Origin: Cytophagales bacterium
Lineage (GTDB): Bacteria > Bacteroidota > Bacteroidia > Cytophagales > Spirosomataceae
Length of the DNA: 36,614 bases
Assembly: GCA_013298125.1 (NCBI GenBank)
Contig: JAAFJP010000047.1
Location: 1 to 36,614, forward strand
Direction of reading: 5' to 3'
Shown: positions 13,142-24,230 of the stretch, piece after piece
Layout: each line of letters starts with the position of its first letter
How positions within the stretch are numbered: position 1 is the first letter of the stretch
Program-made: the position numbers and the translations under genes
The notes under the pieces: model-generated
Database searches by the model: none
What the model was told of the DNA's origin: nothing
The model's input: only the letters and a program-made list of their open reading frames with translations

Positions 13142-15031
13142 TTAATTGGGACACCCTACTTTTATCACCTCAAAAAAAGTCTGGCTATTGGTTTGAAAAT
13201 TAGGACGTAATTCTGTGAATTGTGAAAATCTGTACTGTACATTATTCCCAATATTTTGAGTAGAGACAATATTCTTACCTACAAAAGTAGAATTCCCAGA
13301 TGCTGTTCCGTTCAGTACCAAATTATTTAAACAATCACTGAATGTAAACTTTACTGGAACACTATATTCAGACTCAGAAGTTGTCGAAGTTAATTGTATT
13401 CTATAAACTAAGGAATCGCCGCTTGCTAATTCAATATTATCTTCTATAAAAGAACCATTTGTCTCATTAAACTGAAAAAAGAATGAATCATTATTCTTCT
13501 TTCTTTCCAAAGCCATTTTATTACCATTTGACGGAGCTTGAAAATATACTCGTACCCTATTGTCAGCCATTTGAACAACAGAATCTATTTGAGGACGTAT
13601 CGGTAATTGAGGACTAATATTAAATTTTTCAAAAGAAAACGCTCGCAAACTTTTACTGTTTTTTAGGTGCGTACCCACATAAACAGGCGAATGACGTGCA
13701 GGTAAATAGTCTAATGTTCCAGTACCAATAGTTTGATTTAATTTGATAAAAACTCTATTAGCACTTGCCCAAGCATTTTGAACAATAGCATTACTTTGAT
13801 TTATGTAAAAGTAGTTTTTCAATTGCCACAAAGTGTTATTAACAGTAGTGTCATTCGGAAAAACTATTTTCTGATTTTTATCAAAAACCAAGATTAAAGT
13901 ATCATTTGAAGGCTTTTTTATTACTTTTTGTACATCTGGTGGGCTTATTTCTACGGAATCAGTTGCGTTATAAATGTCATATTTGATTTGTTGGAACAGT
14001 TCACTTGCGATTTGCTCGTAACCCTCTCTGGCATGATGTACGCCATCGGGCGTTGCTATTCCCAGGCAAGTGGCAGTTTTTATTTTAGGGTATAGATACT
14101 TCGTTTTTCGTTGAAACTCACGGATTGTTCCACCACAGCTACAACCACAGGTATAAATCCCGACTTGGATATTATAGAAATAGTCGAACGTTCCAAAATC
14201 TTGGTTCATGTTGTTATAAAGTGTAGTAAAATTCCCAGGATAATTATTAACATCAACATACCAAGTACAAGATTCATTTTCGCCTTGTCTCCATAATATT
14301 CCCTTTATTTTACCAACCGCACCAGCCGTCTGAATTTTTGTTAAAAATCGTCCATAAACAGTATTCACGTTTGCATGATTGTTTTCATCTCTGTAATTCA
14401 AAGCACTAATTGGCAGTCCCCCTGATGCTCCATTAATCACACAAGTGGGTATTCCTTTTTCTGAGAGTATCAAAGCCTGTAATTTGATTCCTAAAACACC
14501 AACGCTTCCATAGGGTTGTTCGGCTGGAAACCATTGTAAACTGTTAGGGTCATTACCATTACTAAAATCAAAGTTTCTGAGTAGTCTATCATCTGTTTCA
14601 TTATTGGATTCATTAATTCCTGTTTGAGCAACCATATTAGATTGCCCGTATAATACATATATATCTCCACAAACAATTCGTTCTCGATACATTACCTCAG
14701 AAGAGTCGGTATTGGAAGTGTGAATAAATAACCTAAAAGAGTATTCTTGGGGTAGGGCTGTGATTGTGGTTGTAAAATCATAATTAAGTGGAAAAACTGA
14801 GTTATTTGTAGTAGCTAAACTGTGGTATTTCAACAAAGTATTTTCCTTTTTTACTAATAAACTTACCTTCGTAACCAATCCAGAAGTGATTTGCCCTTTT
14901 ACAGCCACACTTGCTTGATTAAAATTATCTCTCGGAAAAAGCTGAAAATTCTTTGGAGATTCTATAATACTGTATTGAGCGTAAGTATTTAATGAAATGC
15001 AAAATAGTAGGCTAAATAAAATTTTGAGCAT
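13142..15031 (-). CDS. Secreted sialate O-acetylesterase-like SGNH hydrolase with C-terminal surface module
   Basis: This 629-residue protein has a signal peptide (MLKILFSLLFCISLNTYAQ). After a beta-sandwich region (about 25-120), the catalytic domain (about 120-350) shows GQSNM with nucleophile Ser131, NGASGG (200-205), WRQGENE (248-254) and DGVHH with Asp329 and His332/333. These are the blocks of the SASA/SGNH esterase family that removes acetyl groups from sialic acids and other glycans. A fibronectin-like domain follows (about 470-560). The final 65 residues (LNGTASGNSTFVGKNIVSTQ ... FTELRPNF ... FFEVIKVGC) match a C-terminal module I recognise from Cytophagales cell-surface proteins. 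The substrate is not known. Converges on tsaC with a 31-base gap. Confidence 0.8.
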   Translation of the reverse strand: MLKILFSLLFCISLNTYAQYSIIESPKNFQLFPRDNFNQASVAVKGQITSGLVTKVSLLVKKENTLLKYHSLATTNNSVFPLNYDFTTTITALPQEYSFRLFIHTSNTDSSEVMYRERIVCGDIYVLYGQSNMVAQTGINESNNETDDRLLRNFDFSNGNDPNSLQWFPAEQPYGSVGVLGIKLQALILSEKGIPTCVINGASGGLPISALNYRDENNHANVNTVYGRFLTKIQTAGAVGKIKGILWRQGENESCTWYVDVNNYPGNFTTLYNNMNQDFGTFDYFYNIQVGIYTCGCSCGGTIREFQRKTKYLYPKIKTATCLGIATPDGVHHAREGYEQIASELFQQIKYDIYNATDSVEISPPDVQKVIKKPSNDTLILVFDKNQKIVFPNDTTVNNTLWQLKNYFYINQSNAIVQNAWASANRVFIKLNQTIGTGTLDYLPARHSPVYVGTHLKNSKSLRAFSFEKFNISPQLPIRPQIDSVVQMADNRVRVYFQAPSNGNKMALERKKNNDSFFFQFNETNGSFIEDNIELASGDSLVYRIQLTSTTSESEYSVPVKFTFSDCLNNLVLNGTASGNSTFVGKNIVSTQNIGNNVQYRFSQFTELRPNFQTNSQTFFEVIKVGCPN

Positions 15032-16387: not shown

Positions 16388-17191
16388 CTATATTCCAAAA
16401 AATAATGCTGCATTCAACGTAGTTTGTTCCGCCACTTTCTCCACAGAAATTCCTTTAAATTCTGCCACCGTTGCCGCCACAAAAGGCAAAAATTTAGGTT
16501 CATTTCTTCGTTCTTGGTATTTGGTTAATTGATGCTTTGGAACATTTTTGGGAAGCATAAAAGGAGCGTCCGTTTCAATCATCAGGCGGTCTAAGGGTGT
16601 GTATTTTACGACTTCTTTCAAAAAATCAAAACGTCTTTCATCACTGATTGCCCCTGTGAAACCGAGGTAAAAACCTTTGTCTAAATACGTTTTGGCTTCT
16701 TGCAAACTGCCCGTAAAACAATGCACAACGGCTTTTGGGAGTTTGGATAAATAATTATCTGTAATGGCATTGAAACGCTCAAAAGCGGCTCTCTCGTGCA
16801 AGAATAGCGGTTTTTGAGTTTCGATGGCGAGTTCTAATTGAGCTGCATAACATTGTTCTTGGACAGGTCTTGGCGAGAAATCACGGTCAAAGTCTAAGCC
16901 ACATTCTCCCACAGAAACTACCTGCGATTGTTTTAATAATGCCCTCAATTTAGGAATACTCTGAGCATCAAAACTCTTGGCATCGTGCGGATGAATGCCC
17001 GCCGTAGCGTACAAAAGGTTAGGATATTTCTTTGCCAAAACGGCAGATTGCTCGCTATTACGGATACTCGTACCCGTCAAAATCATCTTAGAAACCTCCG
17101 CATCAATGGCATTTTGGATGATGGTTTCGGTGTCGTTTTGGAATTGTTTGTTGGTGAGGTTTATGCCTATGTCTGTGAGATTATTGGTCAT
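16388..17191 (-). CDS. tatD: TatD family metal-dependent DNase
   Basis: This 267-residue protein of the amidohydrolase-like TIM-barrel family has 3'-5' exonuclease activity on DNA, and on RNA in E. coli, used in repair and DNA turnover. The motifs visible are TDIGINLTNKQF, AGIHPHDAK, GECGLDFDRDFS (metal-ligand Glu), FLHERAAFERF, VVHCFTGS and MIETDAPFMLP, with YQERRNEPKFLP near the C-terminus. The N-terminus reads D-I-G-I-N-L-T rather than D-T-H-C-H-L-D, which marks it as the TatD branch proper rather than the YcfH/YjjV branches. Length is normal. A terminator for the upstream cassette lies 13 bases before the start codon. Confidence 0.88.
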   Translation of the reverse strand: MTNNLTDIGINLTNKQFQNDTETIIQNAIDAEVSKMILTGTSIRNSEQSAVLAKKYPNLLYATAGIHPHDAKSFDAQSIPKLRALLKQSQVVSVGECGLDFDRDFSPRPVQEQCYAAQLELAIETQKPLFLHERAAFERFNAITDNYLSKLPKAVVHCFTGSLQEAKTYLDKGFYLGFTGAISDERRFDFLKEVVKYTPLDRLMIETDAPFMLPKNVPKHQLTKYQERRNEPKFLPFVAATVAEFKGISVEKVAEQTTLNAALFFGI

Positions 17192-17203
17192 TGATTTTTT
17201 GAA

Positions 17204-17239
17204 ATAAAAATGGTCATTACGCTATGCAATGACCATTTT
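17204..17239 (-). terminator. Terminator after the restriction-like cassette
   Basis: A perfect 12-bp stem (AAAATGGTCATT at 17207-17218 with 17228-17239) and a 9-nt loop are followed on the minus strand by TATTTC after a five-T stem end. It begins 7 bases after the stop of the 51-residue ORF and precedes tatD, which suggests that the small ORF, and probably the whole cassette, ends here. Confidence 0.75.
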
Positions 17240-17245
17240 ATGAGT

Positions 17246-17401
17246 TTAAATTGTTGATTTTATTCGATTAGGATTTTTTGCTTTTCGCAAGATTTCCTTT
17301 GCTTTTGCGGTTTTCTCTGGAAATAAATCTATTCCTTTTAGTGATAAAATGACTTCATCGCTAATATGTCTTTTTGTTGATATTGTATTTTGAAATGCCA
17401 T
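17246..17401 (-). CDS. Small basic protein, 51 aa, at the end of the restriction-like cassette
   Basis: An ATG at 17399-17401 opens a 51-codon frame reading MAFQNTISTKRHISDEVILS, then LKGIDLFPEKTAKAKEILRK and a short basic tail ending RIKSTI. It starts 57 bases after the stop of the ATPase-nuclease gene, on the same strand, and is followed by a strong terminator. It is lysine-rich and probably helical in the middle. I do not recognise a family. The context and terminator argue that it is a real gene; its position would suit an accessory or inhibitory subunit, but it could equally be an unrelated passenger. Confidence 0.6.
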   Translation of the reverse strand: MAFQNTISTKRHISDEVILSLKGIDLFPEKTAKAKEILRKAKNPNRIKSTI

Positions 17402-17458
17402 TTTTGAGAGAATTTAAAATTGGAGATATTCAAATTACTTCACAATAGATTCTAAATT

Positions 17459-19312
17459 TTACTTTTTAAAGTGGTCATAAGTGTCAATAAATTCCTTATG
17501 ATACTCTTTTGATTGCTCTAACAACTCCCTGTATGTTTTCACAAATACTTCTCCTGAACGAATATAAGTAGCTTCTTTACTTTTAAAGAACTGGTCTTTC
17601 GATTTGCTGCCACCTATAACGTAGCAAACTACTTTTGAAAATCCAGTTTGCGAAGCATATTTTTCTTCTAAAAAAACCTTGTATCTGTATGCCTGTTCTA
17701 AGGCATTATCATCTACTTCAAATAAACTTCTTTTTATTTCAATTACATATAAAATTTCGCCTAATGCGTTGCTGCACAAAAAATCAATTCTTTTGTTGCT
17801 ACCCTCTAATTTTTCTTCTGGAAAAGTTACTTTTAATAGATTTGTATAAGTTACCTCATCTTTGAATTCTAAAATTCTTGGGTCAAGAAGCCAAGAAAAC
17901 TTTTTAAGAAAATTATGTAAAGTTGGAACTTCTTTTGTATTTGTATCAACATATTCTTCAAATTGTTTAATTACTTCAATTCTTGCAAAAGCTAAATCTC
18001 TGTATTGTTTTGCTTCAATTGCTTTCCAATCATCCATTAATTTTAGTAAAGTTGGAATATCCTCTGGTTTTGAAATGTCCGCAATTTTGGAGGCATATTC
18101 CTTGAAAGTCTTGTTCTCAAATTTACCAATAACTCCTTCAATTATTGCACTTGACTCGGCTACATCAATATTAGCATTTTCAAGAATTGGATCTATAATT
18201 TTATTACTTAATTCTCTTTCATAAGTTGGAAGTGAATTCTGCCACTCTTTTATGTCTAAGCTTGTATTAGATTTAATTGTTTCTGATTTTAATCCAGCTC
18301 TTTTATGTCTCCAATCAGTCCCAATCTTTTTGATAATAAACTGTAAATATGACTGTAACTCTTTTGTTTTATCATTTTCCCAATTTAACGAATGTCTGTC
18401 TGTCGAAATAACATCTTCGTCAAATTCGTCAATAAAATCTACCTCTAAATAACCCGTTACATAACTATGAAATTGGTCATTATCTCTTAATCCATAGAAA
18501 CTTGCAGTATTCACAATTTTACCTCTTGATGTCAGATAAATACCTCCCATCTCAGTGTCTTTTACGGGTGTCTCTGTTGTAATTATAGAACCTTTTACAG
18601 AATTCCAAAATGAATAATCTTTACCAAATTCATCGTTGGGAAAGTCCCAACGAAATTGTTGTTTTAAGTCATTAAATTTCAACTCATTCGTAACTTGTAT
18701 TTCGTCATTTCCATTGAGAGTTGATAAGACTTTCATTTTGTCGAAGATTAAAAACTTTTTTGACAAACTCAGAGATATATCTGGAAGGTCAAAACTTGAT
18801 TTTCTTCTGATTTTTTTCAAAAATATTTTAGTACCTACTTCGCCTGTTGATGCAGGAGTATTGTAATCAATTATTTCGGGATAATAAGAGTCACTTCTAC
18901 TTTTCTTTATCTCATTTATATCCATTTTGAAATGATTTTTCAGTCCATTTTTGATAGAAATCACTTCAATAACATCACAAATCCCAAACACTGAAAGTTT
19001 TCCTAACCCTTTTTTCCCAATTATTTTTCTACCCTTTGAACTAATTTGAGCGTTATTTTCAACTCTTCGATTCCTGCCGATTACTAAATATTTTTCATTA
19101 AGCTCATCAAATAGCATTCCTTCACCATCATCAGAATAGTTGATTTCTTTTATTCCATTTTGGTCTATAAAACTGATTGATACATTATCTGCATCTGCAT
19201 CCCATGAGTTTGAGATTAGTTCTGAAAGTACACTTGGGAGTTTAGAGTATAGTGAAATCCCTAAATGTTCAATTGTGGTTGGATCAAATTTTAATACTAA
19301 TTTTTCTGACAT
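17459..19312 (-). CDS. GHKL (MutL/MORC-like) ATPase fused to a PD-(D/E)XK-like nuclease
   Basis: This 617-residue protein has an N-terminal GHKL ATPase domain with all nucleotide-binding boxes: N-box ELISNSWDADAD (residues 31-42), G1 DDGEGM (61-66), and G2 SSKGRKIIGKKGLGK (91-105). A GTKIFLKKI strand corresponds to G3. A transducer-like and helical middle follows (about 200-460). The C-terminal ~150 residues start with FLKKFSWLL and contain RIDFL with Asp510 and VIEIKR with Glu525 and Lys527, a PD-(D/E)XK arrangement D-x14-E-x-K. The F-L-x-x-x-x-W-L-L lead-in is reminiscent of DUF4263/Shedu-type nucleases. GHKL proteins of the MutL/MORC clade are known to accompany restriction-modification genes. 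Its start overlaps the methyltransferase end by 16 bases. Probable role: ATP-dependent cleavage or sensing of unmodified DNA (inferred). Confidence 0.8.
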   Translation of the reverse strand: MSEKLVLKFDPTTIEHLGISLYSKLPSVLSELISNSWDADADNVSISFIDQNGIKEINYSDDGEGMLFDELNEKYLVIGRNRRVENNAQISSKGRKIIGKKGLGKLSVFGICDVIEVISIKNGLKNHFKMDINEIKKSRSDSYYPEIIDYNTPASTGEVGTKIFLKKIRRKSSFDLPDISLSLSKKFLIFDKMKVLSTLNGNDEIQVTNELKFNDLKQQFRWDFPNDEFGKDYSFWNSVKGSIITTETPVKDTEMGGIYLTSRGKIVNTASFYGLRDNDQFHSYVTGYLEVDFIDEFDEDVISTDRHSLNWENDKTKELQSYLQFIIKKIGTDWRHKRAGLKSETIKSNTSLDIKEWQNSLPTYERELSNKIIDPILENANIDVAESSAIIEGVIGKFENKTFKEYASKIADISKPEDIPTLLKLMDDWKAIEAKQYRDLAFARIEVIKQFEEYVDTNTKEVPTLHNFLKKFSWLLDPRILEFKDEVTYTNLLKVTFPEEKLEGSNKRIDFLCSNALGEILYVIEIKRSLFEVDDNALEQAYRYKVFLEEKYASQTGFSKVVCYVIGGSKSKDQFFKSKEATYIRSGEVFVKTYRELLEQSKEYHKEFIDTYDHFKK

Positions 19313-20523
19313 AATAATTCTTTCATTTTTTGTGCAATTGCATAAGACATTAGTGGTGGTACGGCATTTCCTATTTGTTTGAATGCAGCGGAACGTGAAC
19401 CTTCAAAATAAAAATCATCTGGGAAAGATTGTAACCTTGCCGCTTCTCTTACAGATATAGAACGACATTGTTGTATGTCAGGATGAATGTAATAGTGTCC
19501 ATCTTTTGCAATATGAGCCACAACCGTATGGGAAACCCCTAATCCATCTATTACTTTATATCTGTCAATAAATGAACTTTCGTTTTTATGAGTTTTGAGG
19601 CTTTCAGGTAAATCTGGATATTTTAATCTCACTTTTCCTTTATTCCAAGCCTGAATGGCAGTTTTGTATATCTCTAAATCCCTTTGATTATGAGGTCTGG
19701 TTATGTGTTGAGTTACAAAATCAACGCCATTTCTCAATTCAAATTTTTCTAAGTATTCGTTTTTACTTTCGGTATAATTTGTAGTTCTAAAACCCTCACC
19801 AGGCTTCAATTTAGGCAAATCTTGAAAGGCATCATTGACCGTAAATTGTTTGATTATTTTCTCAAAATCAGGAAATCCAAAATCTTGGTCTTTTTTCCAA
19901 CCAACAATAATTATTCTTTTTCTGGCTTGCAATACTCCAAAATCAGAAGCTGTTAATGTATCGTGATGAACTTCGTAGCCAATTTTTCTAAAATAGGCTT
20001 TTAGGTTTTTGAAATGTTGTCCTTTATTGGCACTCAATAGCCCTGGTACATTTTCAAAAACAAATGCTTTTGGTTTAAACTTTTTCAGGAATCTACCGTA
20101 TTGAATGTACAGTTTATTCCTTGGGTCATTTTCAATATCTTCATGGTGTCTTCCAAGAAGGGAATAGGCTTGACAGGGCGGTCCACCAATAATCAAATCT
20201 ATTTCTTTTTTTGATTTTTCAATAGTTGTAAAAAGCTCAGAAATTGTTTTATCATTAATCTCAACATTGATGACAGAATTCAAGATATCTTCTGGAACTA
20301 ATTGATAAAGTTCAGATTGGGAGATTTCACCTTTTGTATATTTATAGTATACTTCAAGGTTATTCTCAGATTTCAGATGATGATAAGCGGCTCTTGTTTT
20401 AATGGTTGCACACGCCTCTGAATCCATTTCAATATGAGAAACAGGGTTAAACCCAGCTTTGATAAAGCCTTCCGACATTCCTGACGCTCCCGCAAATAAA
20501 TCTATGAAGTTGAGCTTGCTCAT
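19297..20523 (-). CDS. DNA (cytosine-5-)-methyltransferase
   Basis: This 408-residue enzyme transfers methyl groups from S-adenosylmethionine to C5 of cytosine in a specific DNA site. The motifs, in order, are I (NFIDLFAGASGMSEGF, residues 5-20), IV with catalytic Cys117 (IIGGPPCQAYS), VI (FENVPG, 156-161), VIII (QARKRIIIVG, 199-208), IX (RSISVREAARLQSFPDDF) and X (QIGNAVPP). The target-recognition region between VIII and IX (about 215-345) sets the unknown recognition sequence. Length is typical of type II methylases. The start overlaps the XRE regulator gene by four bases (ATGA) and the end overlaps the ATPase-nuclease gene. It therefore forms a modification-plus-attack pair rather than an orphan methylase. 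Confidence 0.93.
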   Translation of the reverse strand: MSKLNFIDLFAGASGMSEGFIKAGFNPVSHIEMDSEACATIKTRAAYHHLKSENNLEVYYKYTKGEISQSELYQLVPEDILNSVINVEINDKTISELFTTIEKSKKEIDLIIGGPPCQAYSLLGRHHEDIENDPRNKLYIQYGRFLKKFKPKAFVFENVPGLLSANKGQHFKNLKAYFRKIGYEVHHDTLTASDFGVLQARKRIIIVGWKKDQDFGFPDFEKIIKQFTVNDAFQDLPKLKPGEGFRTTNYTESKNEYLEKFELRNGVDFVTQHITRPHNQRDLEIYKTAIQAWNKGKVRLKYPDLPESLKTHKNESSFIDRYKVIDGLGVSHTVVAHIAKDGHYYIHPDIQQCRSISVREAARLQSFPDDFYFEGSRSAAFKQIGNAVPPLMSYAIAQKMKELLCQKN

Positions 20524-20741
20524 TTTGTGGGTTTTAATTTTAAATGACTACAAACATTATTTAGAATTTCACTTGGTTTAACGCCAATTGCCAAAGCTAC
20601 AAGATAAAGTTCTTCCGCTTTGAGATTTGTACTCTCATTATGACTAAGCTCACTTAACCGAGCAGTACTTATGCCTGTTTTACGAGAAACTTCTGCCTTC
20701 TTGATTGATTTCTTTGATAAATAGTCTCCAAAAGTTGTCAT
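20520..20741 (-). CDS. XRE-family controller protein (C-protein-like)
   Basis: This 73-residue helix-turn-helix protein has the DNA-binding stretch KKAEVSRKTGISTARLSELS (about 14-33), followed by NLKAEELYLVALAIGVKPSE, the standard Cro/C1-type five-helix core. Its size, position as first gene and four-base overlap with the methyltransferase match the small controller proteins that time expression of restriction-modification systems. A perfect 21-bp inverted repeat (20765-20809) ending 23 bases before its ATG is the likely binding site, so autoregulation is expected. The regulator role is inferred from context; the fold is evident. Confidence 0.88.
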   Translation of the reverse strand: MTTFGDYLSKKSIKKAEVSRKTGISTARLSELSHNESTNLKAEELYLVALAIGVKPSEILNNVCSHLKLKPTK

Positions 20742-20763
20742 TATTTCAATAAATTTTGTTTAG

Positions 20764-20771
20764 CAAAGATA
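20764..20771 (-). promoter_or_regulatory. Candidate -7 promoter box of the restriction-like operon
   Basis: On the minus strand this reads TATCTTTG, matching TAnnTTTG, 22 bases before the regulator ATG. It overlaps the proximal end of the inverted repeat, so a protein bound there would block RNA polymerase. Confidence 0.5.
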
Positions 20772-20809
20772 TACATTTATTTAGATTTTCTAAATAAATG
20801 TATATCTTT
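20765..20809. promoter_or_regulatory. Perfect 21-bp inverted repeat, probable operator
   Basis: AAAGATATACATTTATTTAG plus A (20765-20785) is repeated exactly in inverted orientation at 20789-20809, with the 3-base spacer TTT. It fills the gap between the polA stop (20823) and the XRE start. It is too AT-rich, and lacks the T-run, for a good terminator. The length suits two helical turns per arm, or a dimer of dimers. Confidence 0.7.
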
Positions 20810-20822
20810 CTATTTTCCTCCA

Positions 20823-23693
20823 TCAATGTGCCTCCAACCAATTCAACCCAACACCCATCCCAGTTTCCATCTTCACAGGGAAAGGTATTGCATTGACCAT
20901 CAGTTCGTTAACTTTGGTTTTCATTAGTTCTAATTCTGATTTATGTACGTCAAAAACTAATTCGTCATGTACCGTCAGGATGATGCGGGATTGTAGTTTT
21001 TCTTGCTTAATAAAGTCGTTTACTTTTATCATCGCAATTTTTATCATGTCCGCCGCCGAGCCTTGTATGGGTGCGTTCACGGCGTTGCGTTCGGCAAAAC
21101 CACGCTCTACCATGTTCTGAGAATTGATGTCTCGCAGATACCTTCTGCGTCCCAAAATGGTTTCTACATAACCATTGTCACGGGCAATAATCACGGCATC
21201 GTTCATATATTTTTTGATGGACGGAAATTCCTTCCAATAATTATCAATCAACTCCTTGGCTTCGGTTCTACTCACCCCAATTTGCTCCGCTAACCCAAAG
21301 GCAGAAACGCCATAAATAATTCCAAAATTGACCGTTTTTGCCTTTCTACGCATCTCCGAAGTTACTTCATCCAAACTAACATTAAATACTTTTGCGGCTG
21401 TCGTAGCGTGAATATCTCGCCCTTGATTAAAGGCTTCAATCATAGATTCGTCCTTGGCAAAAGCCGCCATAATCCTTAATTCAATCTGCGAATAATCGGC
21501 AGAAAGGATTAAAAAATCATCATTTTTAGGAATAAATGCCTTCCGAATTTCTCGCCCACGAGCGGTACGAATTGGGATATTTTGTAAGTTCGGATTCGTA
21601 CTCGAAAGTCGCCCCGTGGAAGTAACTGCCTGATTAAACGAAGTATGAATTCGTCCCGTTTTTGGTGAAATCAGTTGTGGTAAAGCATCTACATAAGTCG
21701 ATTTTAATTTTTGCAATTCTCTGAAATCCAAAATCTTACGAGCAATTTCGTGTTGAGATTCTAATTTAGAAAGCACCTCTTCGCCCGTCATGTATTGACC
21801 CGTTTTGGTCTTTTTGGCTTTGGGGTCGAGTTTGAGTTTATCGAATAAAATTTCGCCTAATTGCTTAGGAGAACTCAGATTAAATTCTTGTCCAGCCAAT
21901 TCAAAAACCCGTGTCTGTACTTCCAACATATCTTTCTCCAAAACCTTCGACATTGTAGCCAAAAACTCAACGTCCAACCGCACACCTTCCATTTCAATAT
22001 CGCAAAGCACCTGAGTCAGAGGCATTTCTACTTCCTCAAACAATTGAACAGCACTCGGATTTTGGGCCAACATCGGATGCAATTTATCTCTCAATTGTAG
22101 CGTAATATCCGCATCCTCCGCCGCATATTCTTTCACTTTTTCGATGTCCGCATCACGCATATTGCCTTGTTTCACGCCTTTTTTACCGATGATTTCTTCG
22201 ATAGATACTGGCGTATAATTCAAGAAATCTTCCGCCAAAATATCCATTCCATGACGTTTTTCGGGTTCGATTAAGTAATGAGCCAACATCGTATCGTAGG
22301 TTTTACCCTTTATTTCAACGCCATATTGAGTCAAAACCATCAAGTCATATTTGATATTTTGAGCAATTTTTTCAATCTTTTCATTCAAGAAAATAGGCTT
22401 AAATTCATCCACAATCGCCTGAGCCTCAGTCTGATTGGCGGGTACGGGTACGTAATAGCCTTCACCCGCACGATATGCAAATGACATTCCGACTAACTCC
22501 GCTTCAACGGCATCAACGCTGGTAGTTTCTGTATCAAAACAAATGGCATCTTGCAAACTCAAAAAGTGAATCAGCGATTGGCGTAATTCGGGCGTATCGA
22601 TGAGATGGTATTGGTGAACGGTTGTGTATATGGTGTTCTTGGTACTGTGTTCTGGGTTCTGAGATTCGCTGTCAGAATTTGCTGAAAAAATATCTAATTG
22701 CTTCTCTGGGGCGAGGCTGGCGAACATATCCATTTGTCCAGAATTGGCGGTCGGCTTTCGGCTATCGGTTTTCGGCTGATTGCTGACTGCCGACTGCCGA
22801 CTGCCCGCTTCGCTTGCTTCCTCTCCCAACAATCTCCTCCGCAAAGTCCTAAACTCCAATTCATCCAAAAGTGGCGATAATAATTCTTTATTTACCTCCG
22901 TCAATCTCAAATCTTCCTCCACAAAATCAACGGGAACTTCGAGCATGATAGTCGCTAATTCTTTTGACAAAAGCCCCTGTTCTGCGAAATTGCGTACATT
23001 TTCTTGTTGCTTACCTTTCAGTTTATCAACATTCGCAATCAGGTTTTCTACCGAACCATATTCTTCAATCAGTTTTTGAGCCGTCTTCTCGCCAATGCCA
23101 GGAATGCCAGGGATATTATCAGAAGCATCACCCATCAATCCCAAAATATCAATCACTTTCATCACATCATCAATGCCCCAACGCTCACAGATTTGCTCGA
23201 TACCCAAGACCTCCACGCCCTTGCCCATGTAGGCGGGTTTGTACATGAAAATCCGCTCCTCGACCAACTGCCCGTAATCTTTATCGGGAGTCATCATAAA
23301 TACCTCCATATCCTCATGTCCACGGGCGGCACGTTTCGCAATCGTCCCGATGATGTCGTCGGCTTCGTAGCCTGGTAACACTAAAATCGGGATATTCATG
23401 GCAGTACAAAGTTGTTTTACATAAGGAATTGCAATCGAAATATCCTCGGGTTGTTTTTCACGTTGAGCCTTGTACGCCTCAAATTGAATATGTCGAAAAG
23501 TGGGTTCGGAAGTATCAAAAGCCACACCGATATGCGTAGGTTTTTCTTTGGAAATAACCTCTAAAAGTGTGTTGGCAAAACCAAATACGGCACTGGTATT
23601 CATGCCCGTAGAGGAAATTCGAGGTGTTTTTTGGAAAGCAAAGTGGGCTCTGTAAATCAACGCCATTGCGTCGAGGAGGAAAAGTTTTTTCAT
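20823..23693 (-). CDS. polA: DNA polymerase I with in-frame repeat insert
   Basis: This 956-residue enzyme removes primers and fills gaps in replication and repair. The 5'-nuclease domain (1-290) shows FDTSEPTFRH, GYEADDIIGT, TPDKDYGQLV and GDASDNIPGIPGIGEKTA. The 3'-5' exonuclease domain keeps its acidic residues (FDTET with Asp387 and Glu389, NIKYD, YAAEDADIT), so proofreading should be active. Polymerase motifs A (DYSQIELRIMAAF), B (RRKAKTVNFGIIYG) and C (VHDEL) are intact. Residues 297-320 (GSRQSAVSNQPKTDSRKPTA and NSGQ) look like a translated dispersed repeat inserted in the linker between the 5'-nuclease and exonuclease domains. The extra linker explains part of the slightly long size. 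Convergence with other genes is avoided: the stop is 14 bases from the neighbouring operator. Confidence 0.95.
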   Translation of the reverse strand: MKKLFLLDAMALIYRAHFAFQKTPRISSTGMNTSAVFGFANTLLEVISKEKPTHIGVAFDTSEPTFRHIQFEAYKAQREKQPEDISIAIPYVKQLCTAMNIPILVLPGYEADDIIGTIAKRAARGHEDMEVFMMTPDKDYGQLVEERIFMYKPAYMGKGVEVLGIEQICERWGIDDVMKVIDILGLMGDASDNIPGIPGIGEKTAQKLIEEYGSVENLIANVDKLKGKQQENVRNFAEQGLLSKELATIMLEVPVDFVEEDLRLTEVNKELLSPLLDELEFRTLRRRLLGEEASEAGSRQSAVSNQPKTDSRKPTANSGQMDMFASLAPEKQLDIFSANSDSESQNPEHSTKNTIYTTVHQYHLIDTPELRQSLIHFLSLQDAICFDTETTSVDAVEAELVGMSFAYRAGEGYYVPVPANQTEAQAIVDEFKPIFLNEKIEKIAQNIKYDLMVLTQYGVEIKGKTYDTMLAHYLIEPEKRHGMDILAEDFLNYTPVSIEEIIGKKGVKQGNMRDADIEKVKEYAAEDADITLQLRDKLHPMLAQNPSAVQLFEEVEMPLTQVLCDIEMEGVRLDVEFLATMSKVLEKDMLEVQTRVFELAGQEFNLSSPKQLGEILFDKLKLDPKAKKTKTGQYMTGEEVLSKLESQHEIARKILDFRELQKLKSTYVDALPQLISPKTGRIHTSFNQAVTSTGRLSSTNPNLQNIPIRTARGREIRKAFIPKNDDFLILSADYSQIELRIMAAFAKDESMIEAFNQGRDIHATTAAKVFNVSLDEVTSEMRRKAKTVNFGIIYGVSAFGLAEQIGVSRTEAKELIDNYWKEFPSIKKYMNDAVIIARDNGYVETILGRRRYLRDINSQNMVERGFAERNAVNAPIQGSAADMIKIAMIKVNDFIKQEKLQSRIILTVHDELVFDVHKSELELMKTKVNELMVNAIPFPVKMETGMGVGLNWLEAH
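22734..22805. repeat. Repeat-derived insert within polA, with 7-bp tandem units
   Basis: The stretch encodes PolA residues 297-320. It contains three tandem copies of GACTGCC (22785-22805) and a run of CGGCT/CGG-type units (22749-22778). Composition differs from the surrounding polA codons and resembles the GGCTATTGGCTTTTAGC class of intergenic repeats, one of which lies upstream of polA at 23706-23796. Confidence 0.7.
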
Positions 23694-23912: not shown

Positions 23913-24230
23913 CTATTCTATCAAAAAAATATCTTCGGGATTTTGACTTGTATGGTGAATTCGGATAAATTCAATTCGGTGTTCATAAACATCATAATAA
24001 ATGACGTATTCTTTTTTGAAAACTGCTCGATGGGTGATGCCTTTTAAGCCTTCCTCATATAAACGGAATGCAAAGGGCATTTTGGCAATTGTGAAGAGTA
24101 GGAAATCGTAAATATCAGAGATGAGTTTACGAGCTTTTTGTGGGTTATACTGTTTTTTGTAATCTTCAAGTCTAATCAAATCATCAAGAAAAATATCTTT
24201 GAAAATCAAGTCTCTTTCGTTTTCAATCAT
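23913..24230 (-). CDS. RelE/ParE-family toxin-like protein
   Basis: This 105-residue protein shows helices FKDIFLDDLIRLEDYKKQYN and PQKARKLISDIYDFLLFTIA, then KMPFAFRLYEEGLKGITHRA and VFKKEYVIYYDVYEHRIEFI, ending RIHHTSQNP. The strand pattern 'R.....YVIYY......I.I..I.H..Q.P' is that of ParE/RelE-type toxins, which inhibit gyrase (ParE) or cleave ribosome-bound mRNA (RelE). Which activity applies is not decidable here. It overlaps the antitoxin gene by four bases (ATGA), the usual coupling in type II toxin-antitoxin modules. Confidence 0.8.
   Translation of the reverse strand: MIENERDLIFKDIFLDDLIRLEDYKKQYNPQKARKLISDIYDFLLFTIAKMPFAFRLYEEGLKGITHRAVFKKEYVIYYDVYEHRIEFIRIHHTSQNPEDIFLIE

Follow-up and report, generated by a model that had tools for sequence, protein, structure and literature searches.

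The closest described relatives of the system considered here are the paraMORC3 proteins, defined by Iyer, Abhiman and Aravind in 2008 as a GHKL-S5 ATPase followed by a C-terminal nuclease of the restriction endonuclease (RE) fold; the part of that paper available to us describes them as common in Proteobacteria and Bacteroidetes, sporadic in distribution and placed in neighbourhoods with Vsr and DNA methylase genes, some members standing on their own (PMC2292703). Three further kinds of system are related. The BbrUII/HgiDII restriction enzymes, collected in NCBIfam NF050001, form two-gene pairs with a C5 cytosine methylase, and the accessible text of PMC5867850 reports both M.HgiDII and M.BbrUII as 5-methylcytosine (m5C) methylases, the former acting on GTCGAC. 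VcSduA, of Shedu type I-D, carries an N-terminal GHKL ATPase and a C-terminal PD-(D/E)XK nuclease in one chain; it protects against phage in a manner that fits direct restriction, and this defence is lost on mutating either the ATPase glutamate or the nuclease lysine (PMC12137116, in the sections available). Finally, restriction-modification (RM)-associated HEF_HK/Response_reg_2 systems, in which a paraMORC-like HATPase_c_3 protein adjoins a C5 methylase, are described in the portion of PMC8011034 at hand. Here we analyse a gene cassette in a 36,614-nucleotide stretch of DNA from a Cytophagales bacterium (the whole stretch is called the window below), which is likely to be a horizontally moved type II-like RM system with a paraMORC3-type restriction enzyme.

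The prediction of restriction enzymes of the GHKL-nuclease kind dates from 2008, and the questions about their mechanism concern the use of ATP, the reading of the site and the gating of the nuclease by the ATPase. The clade of the window is compact (three genes), widely exchanged and naturally methylase-swapped, which makes it a good test case for how the target is defined.

Gene order and domain structure of the cassette

The first-pass annotation had placed a restriction-like cassette of four genes at 17246-20809. The cassette is present there, on the minus strand between polA and tatD, and the ORF (open reading frame) list and Pfam matches confirmed its XRE regulator, C5 methylase and GHKL-nuclease, whose genes overlap by 4 nt (XRE and methylase) and by 16 nt (methylase and GHKL-nuclease):

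20520..20741, minus strand: XRE/HTH_26 regulator gene, 73 amino acids (Pfam HTH_26, 42 bits)
19297..20523, minus strand: C5 cytosine DNA methyltransferase, 408 amino acids, here called type A (PF00145, 233 bits)
17459..19312, minus strand: GHKL-nuclease gene, 617 amino acids, putative paraMORC3-type restriction enzyme (HATPase_c_3, 74.5 bits, residues 26-142)
17246..17401, minus strand: 51-amino-acid ORF (ORF51), present as an ORF, not a conserved part of the cassette

The set thus counts three genes, not four. ORF51 was rejected as a component: by tblastn (E<=0.01) it is missing from all 19 loci of close relatives (L012-L030), at least six of which lie on short or cut contigs, and its sole clear relative (66% identity, E 8e-12; all other matches E 5e-4 or worse) is found in a genome of the same genus, G006, that gave no GHKL-nuclease match at E<=0.001.

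As the first-pass annotation had proposed, the GHKL ATPase and the nuclease motif stand in one chain, and the N-box (E31/N35/D38), G1 (D61-x-G63-x-G65), G2 (G99-x-K101-G102-x-G104-K105) and R508-x-D510-x14-E525-x-K527 motifs are intact. Chance is an unlikely explanation, for none of these residues varies among the window protein and its 13 close relatives (63-72% identity), the 14-sequence set that serves as the unselected test of the nuclease motif, or within a 48-sequence alignment reaching down to 22% identity, in which 34 members were drawn from 56 IMG/VR ORFs and partly picked for the D..ExK motif. Exceptions were seen elsewhere: 7 of those 56 ORFs have no D..E-x-K match even by a loose criterion, and the Pantoea member of a third alignment, which includes plasmid and phage relatives, shows E-x-M instead of E-x-K. 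The AlphaFold2 model based on the 48 sequences (mean predicted local distance difference test score, pLDDT, 81.5; predicted template modelling score, pTM, 0.62), which superseded a first model from 14 sequences (pLDDT 67), arranges the chain as GHKL domain, S5-like transducer, long helices and an alpha-beta-beta-alpha-beta C-terminus containing the nuclease motif:

18887..19237, minus strand: GHKL ATPase domain, residues 26-142 (HATPase_c_3 and invariant motifs; E31 codon at 19220-19222)
18374..18733, minus strand: transducer/S5-like region, approximately residues 194-313 (AlphaFold2 model and Foldseek)
17945..18373, minus strand: helical middle region, residues 314-456 (AlphaFold2 secondary structure)
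17732..17791, minus strand: predicted nuclease active-site stretch R508-x-D510-x14-E525-x-K527 (alignments and C-terminal profile)

The best 50 Foldseek matches of this model in the PDB were HtpG, TRAP1, Hsp90, MORC3 and MORC2, with alignments to TRAP1, MORC2 and MORC3 over about 360-450 columns and TM-scores by query length of 0.30-0.41; most of the best 50 in a viral fold library were rIIA proteins, Hsp90-like or topoisomerase-like proteins, or GHKL-type proteins without a name. For the C-terminal domain, profile evidence points to a PD-(D/E)XK-type nuclease. Among the 48 members, Pfam matches at E<=0.01 were found to HSDR_N_2 (16 members), SduA_C (8) and NucS_C (2), and the C-terminal profile searched against the PDB retrieved NucS (E 0.004), SduA (E 0.18) and EndoMS (E 0.27), which makes NucS, related to a mismatch nuclease, the closest nuclease of solved structure.

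The cassette is best filed with the paraMORC3-type RM systems, as an uncharacterised sister clade. Intact GHKL motifs, an S5 region after the GHKL domain, an E-D-ExK nuclease of RE fold on motif and profile matches, and an RM neighbourhood with a C5 methylase were all found, along with a sporadic distribution and Vsr neighbours in relatives; no excluding difference appeared, and the order XRE-methylase-paraMORC3 is not mentioned in the accessible part of PMC2292703. The precedent invoked by the first-pass annotation was therefore apt, and its description of the arrangement as non-classical went too far: paraMORC3 proteins are described, and proteins like them are classed under type II restriction enzymes by both PADLOC and NCBIfam. 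PADLOC REase_II models PDLC03419 and PDLC03485 match 48 of 48 aligned family members, and NF050001 matches the window protein over its full length (residues 8-614, 312 bits). The same annotation knew of no biochemical account of its exact four-gene set; for systems of this kind experimental accounts exist, in the available texts on the VcSduA mutants (PMC12137116) and, for the sister family, on M.HgiDII and M.BbrUII (PMC5867850). A literature search, mostly at the level of titles and abstract openings, returned no further experimental account of this arrangement.

Methylase partners across relatives

The conserved core of the system is two genes, the methylase and the GHKL-nuclease, which stand adjacent and are kept as a pair, as in type II systems. 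The close clade comprises 23 loci (the window, L012-L030, L107, L108 and L202; L002 duplicates the L016 locus and was left out). Of these, 11 have a type A methylase, which in L030 is a remnant, and six have the related type B, broken in L020; type C occurs in one and type D in two, so that a single methylase lineage (types A/B) accounts for 17 of the 20 loci with an assessable methylase. Vsr and XRE genes are less frequent, at 8/23 and 3/23, respectively; in L015 and L016 an XRE homologue (about 61%) precedes the methylase gene, that of L016 being interrupted by an in-frame stop.

Pairing with a C5 methylase, one of the neighbours that the first-pass annotation had suggested counting together with ORF51, held up well beyond the close clade. 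Altogether 76 of 80 IMG/VR loci (near-duplicates included) carry a C5 methylase and 17 carry Vsr, with 0/40 for both in control stretches of 20 kb from two genus genomes, which are unmatched for virus or defence context. The methylase lies within 1.2 kb of the GHKL-nuclease in 53 of 56 IMG/VR ORFs, the other 24 of the 80 having been omitted as near-duplicates or short or partial matches; its placement is upstream co-directional (25), downstream convergent (21), downstream co-directional (5) or upstream divergent (2). In plasmid relatives aligned at a coverage of at least 80%, an annotated C5 methylase adjoins the gene in 7/7 cases. Two outcomes that the first-pass annotation had set against its own proposal, homologues standing consistently alone in non-defence contexts and a C-terminal fold other than PD-(D/E)XK, are thus not what the neighbourhoods and profiles indicate.

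The class of the methylase follows the class of the GHKL protein. Type A pairing extends to GHKL proteins only 35-38% identical (L050, L112), and another methylase class is carried by the haloarchaeal, rhizobial, Deinococcus and P2-like-phage relatives (L047, L093, L094 and L049), which score 751-794 bits with NF050001. The recognition region is conserved across type A methylases: its identity to the window methylase is 57-87% within type A, 34-37% for type B and 15-22% for the methylases of L047, L049, L093 and L094, which stand in for the M.HgiDII sequence in this comparison. The window system agrees with BbrUII/HgiDII in its full-length profile match and two-gene pairing and differs in the class and recognition region of its methylase; because of this difference its target is probably other than GTCGAC, as far as sequence can tell.

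The window methylase also matches DrmMII (568 bits, PADLOC). A DISARM origin was rejected, since methylases of types B, C, D and H match DrmMII models as well and no Drm gene occurs among the ORFs of the polA-tatD interval that was scanned (XRE, methylase, GHKL-nuclease, ORF51 and overlapping antisense ones). On a Deinococcus plasmid (L094, 3947-9866), a paraMORC3-methylase-Vsr set adjoins an annotated DISARM drmC gene.

Mechanism and competing explanations

If the cassette is the RM system that we consider likely, the C5 methylase would mark a sequence in the host genome, and the GHKL-nuclease would dimerise through its ATPase, close around DNA and cut incoming DNA without the mark at its PD-(D/E)XK site. 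The XRE protein, probably an autoregulator or controller, would bind the upstream palindrome and delay or tune expression. An ATP-gated dimer clamp of this kind, with the type A methylase protecting the host, is suggested by analogy and is close to the clamping-dependent cleavage that the first-pass annotation had considered possible, because VcSduA needs both its ATPase and its nuclease sites for phage defence. Protection against phage, the role proposed in the first-pass annotation, would then be plausible for the cassette.

Several observations weigh against this reading. The NF050001 score of the window protein lies below the equivalog cut-off of 550, its HSDR_N_2 match is below the Pfam cut-off, and it gave no SduA_C match at E<=0.01. 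Structure prediction, which the first-pass annotation had called for, bore out the GHKL part; the fold searches gave ATPase-part matches only among the best 50 of each and are neutral on the nuclease fold. No methylase was seen in 3/23 close-clade loci, all on short or cut contigs, nor in 4/80 IMG/VR loci. Genome composition, sampled over 400 kb each of the window's own genome (G000) and relative G007 (20 x 20 kb each, L051-L090), allowed no target motif to be assigned, since many palindromes are strongly avoided in both samples: observed/expected ratios were 0.00-0.20 for GATC, GGCC, CCGG, CTAG, GCGC and CGCG, CCWGG stood at 0.53 in the own genome and 0.23 in G007, and GTCGAC was observed 2 times against 26 expected in the former and 0 against 22 in the latter. 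Restriction by this clade is a prediction.

A further objection, and the unusual feature of the relatives, comes from three of the 20 assessable close-clade loci, which carry an unrelated methylase type: L016 (type C) and L022 and L025 (type D). Such swaps weigh against a strict type II pair, which would not predict unrelated methylases. In L016, from Pseudarcicella, the XRE homologue and a 72%-identical nuclease are kept and the middle of the cassette is replaced by a DUF6998-like gene (a match below the Pfam cut-off) and methylase C. In L022, from Limnobacter, methylase D is accompanied by Vsr, an MvaI/BcnI-type enzyme and the GHKL-nuclease; L025 has the GHKL-nuclease, an MvaI/BcnI-like gene and methylase D in a different order. 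The MvaI/BcnI-type restriction enzyme genes are located as follows:

L022, 4415-5830: Pfam match
L025, 1482-2942: homologue of the L022 gene

Type A methylase was not found at E<=1e-15 in the genomes of L016, L022 and L025, the last a partial metagenome-assembled genome (MAG). In a 21-row tree, in which several other forks are weakly supported, the L016 nuclease clusters with nucleases whose partner is type B (99/96), beside those whose partner is type A (84/85). Identity of the methylase recognition region to the window falls to 15-17% in the swapped types, with 31% in the core, and nuclease blocks compared with type A members show 69% identity within A, a mean of 68% for partner C, 65% for B and 64% for D, in a comparison that rests on one C and one D sequence. 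By these block identities the recognition region changes class without a matching local change in the nuclease: with partner C there is no localised drop, and with partner D the divergence lies over approximately residues 1-400, not in the nuclease part.

Given the swaps, the nuclease may not itself define the target. It could lack specificity of its own, the adjacent C5 methylase, whichever its type (A, B, C or D), recognising the target and bringing in or activating the ATP-driven nuclease where the site is unmodified, in a manner likened to type I or BREX systems. We regard this as unlikely, even though it would account for the unrelated methylases, the missing type A genes and the L016 locus, where the nuclease persists around a changed middle. 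The swaps are few (C in one genus, D in two loci) and are also explained by isospecific replacement, with C and D reading the same sequence as A through another recognition fold, or by service of the methylase to a second nuclease-type gene, namely the DUF6998-like gene of L016 or the MvaI/BcnI-type genes of L022 and L025, which may own methylases C and D. Pairing is moreover tight wherever A or B is present, the partner D nuclease is the more diverged over its first 400 or so residues, and enzymes of the sister family bear the names of ordinary type II enzymes. The bolder proposal that the GHKL-nuclease is a portable, specificity-free effector that methylase exchange re-targets is likewise improbable; if true, a scheme in which the methylase reads and the GHKL protein cuts would be a two-protein restriction logic unlike that of orthodox type II enzymes.

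A Shedu type I-D nuclease of the VcSduA kind, sensing features of phage DNA with the methylase as a bystander or self-marking device, would share the domain order of the window protein, and SduA_C is matched by 8/48 relatives; the VcSduA data also fit direct restriction with host viability preserved (PMC12137116, in the text available). The near-universal methylase linkage and the missing DUF4263/SduA_C signature in the window protein make this improbable too, and no methylase partner is described in the accessible part of that paper. Much less probable still is a degenerate or non-defence gene set with a repair-type, MutL-like function together with Vsr. Its appeal lies in the Vsr genes of the close-clade and IMG/VR loci and in the resemblance of the C-terminal region to NucS. 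Vsr commonly accompanies C5 methylases, repairing deaminated 5-methylcytosine, and is absent among the ORFs of the window interval; the sporadic occurrence across Bacteroidota, Proteobacteria and an archaeon also speaks against a repair set.

Insertion site, mobility and neighbouring genes

The cassette is a horizontally acquired, foreign insertion in a variable site. Its boundaries and flanks are listed below:

20823-23693: polA, flank of the cassette
20765..20809: perfect 21-bp inverted repeat with a 3-nt spacer (arms 20765-20785 and 20789-20809), upstream of the XRE gene
17207..17239, minus strand: perfect inverted repeat of 12 bp with a short run of T after it, a terminator-like end of the cassette before tatD (repeat search and sequence)
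16388-17191: tatD, flank of the cassette
17183..20820: inserted segment, which shares no DNA homology with the stretch between polA and tatD in relative G004

In G004, a CoiA-like gene and an HTH gene take the place of the cassette between polA and tatD, and GC content inside the cassette is about 30-35%, compared with up to 42% in tatD and 46% in polA. In G002 and G005 the genes downstream of polA encode a GHKL protein and another C5 methylase (27% identity); tatD was not found in either genome at E<=1e-60, so the common flank there is the polA side only. The GHKL protein, as examined in G002, has a histidine-kinase-like C-terminal module in place of a nuclease and a receiver-like neighbour, and the set is of the HEF_HK/Response_reg_2 type as described in the available portion of PMC8011034. 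Gene content downstream of polA thus differs among relatives of one genus (window 17183-20820; L098 5540-7725; L099 and L100), and with two of the three kinds of gene set being RM-like, the site is variable and probably a defence-rich spot.

On the minus strand, TATCTTTG continues from the gene-proximal arm of the 21-bp repeat, about 22 nt before the XRE start codon, and fits the Bacteroidota -7 element, TAnnTTTG. Because the repeat arm runs into this -7-like element near the XRE start, the repeat is a plausible candidate for an XRE operator overlapping the XRE promoter. No repeat of this type is among the inverted repeats listed for the Aquimarina relative L015.

Relatives of 62-79% identity were found in Bacteroidota, Proteobacteria, a Micavibrio MAG and the archaeon Methanolobus, and relatives are present on plasmids and virus-like contigs. 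Few genomes carry the clade: a search at E<=1e-60 detected it in 5 of 395 genomes of the phylum (the own genome, one at 72% and three at 40-41%, the last matching over approximately the first 390 residues only) and in 2 of 390 genomes of the order (the own genome and G012). At the same threshold, samples of 398 genomes from the phylum of a Marinomonas genome and of 395 from the order of a Flavobacterium genome yielded the seed genome only. A viral scan with a streptococcal relative confirmed no relative. In the record of a P2-like Escherichia phage (L049; PV340563, 6021-9069), genes annotated as a ParaMORC3-Dcm pair separate replication gene A from portal gene Q.

Broken members occur among the relatives, with a break in the nuclease frame near 6081 in L012, the XRE stop of L016 (4322-4531), a broken methylase in L020 (128-1017) and a methylase-nuclease remnant in L030 (5424-6204). 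In three Bacteroidota (L014 2325-6002, L021 2233-5949 and L028 2294-6004), a protein of 1225-1238 amino acids is encoded directly upstream of, or overlapping, the GHKL-nuclease gene; the copy in L021 has matches to ORC-CDC6-like models and weak ones to protein kinase models, and the combination is a possible sensor-effector variant. Elsewhere in the window, a ParE-like toxin gene (23913-24230, minus strand; PF05016, 30 bits) lies upstream of polA, and a SASA-type carbohydrate esterase is encoded at 13142-15031 on the minus strand (PF03629).

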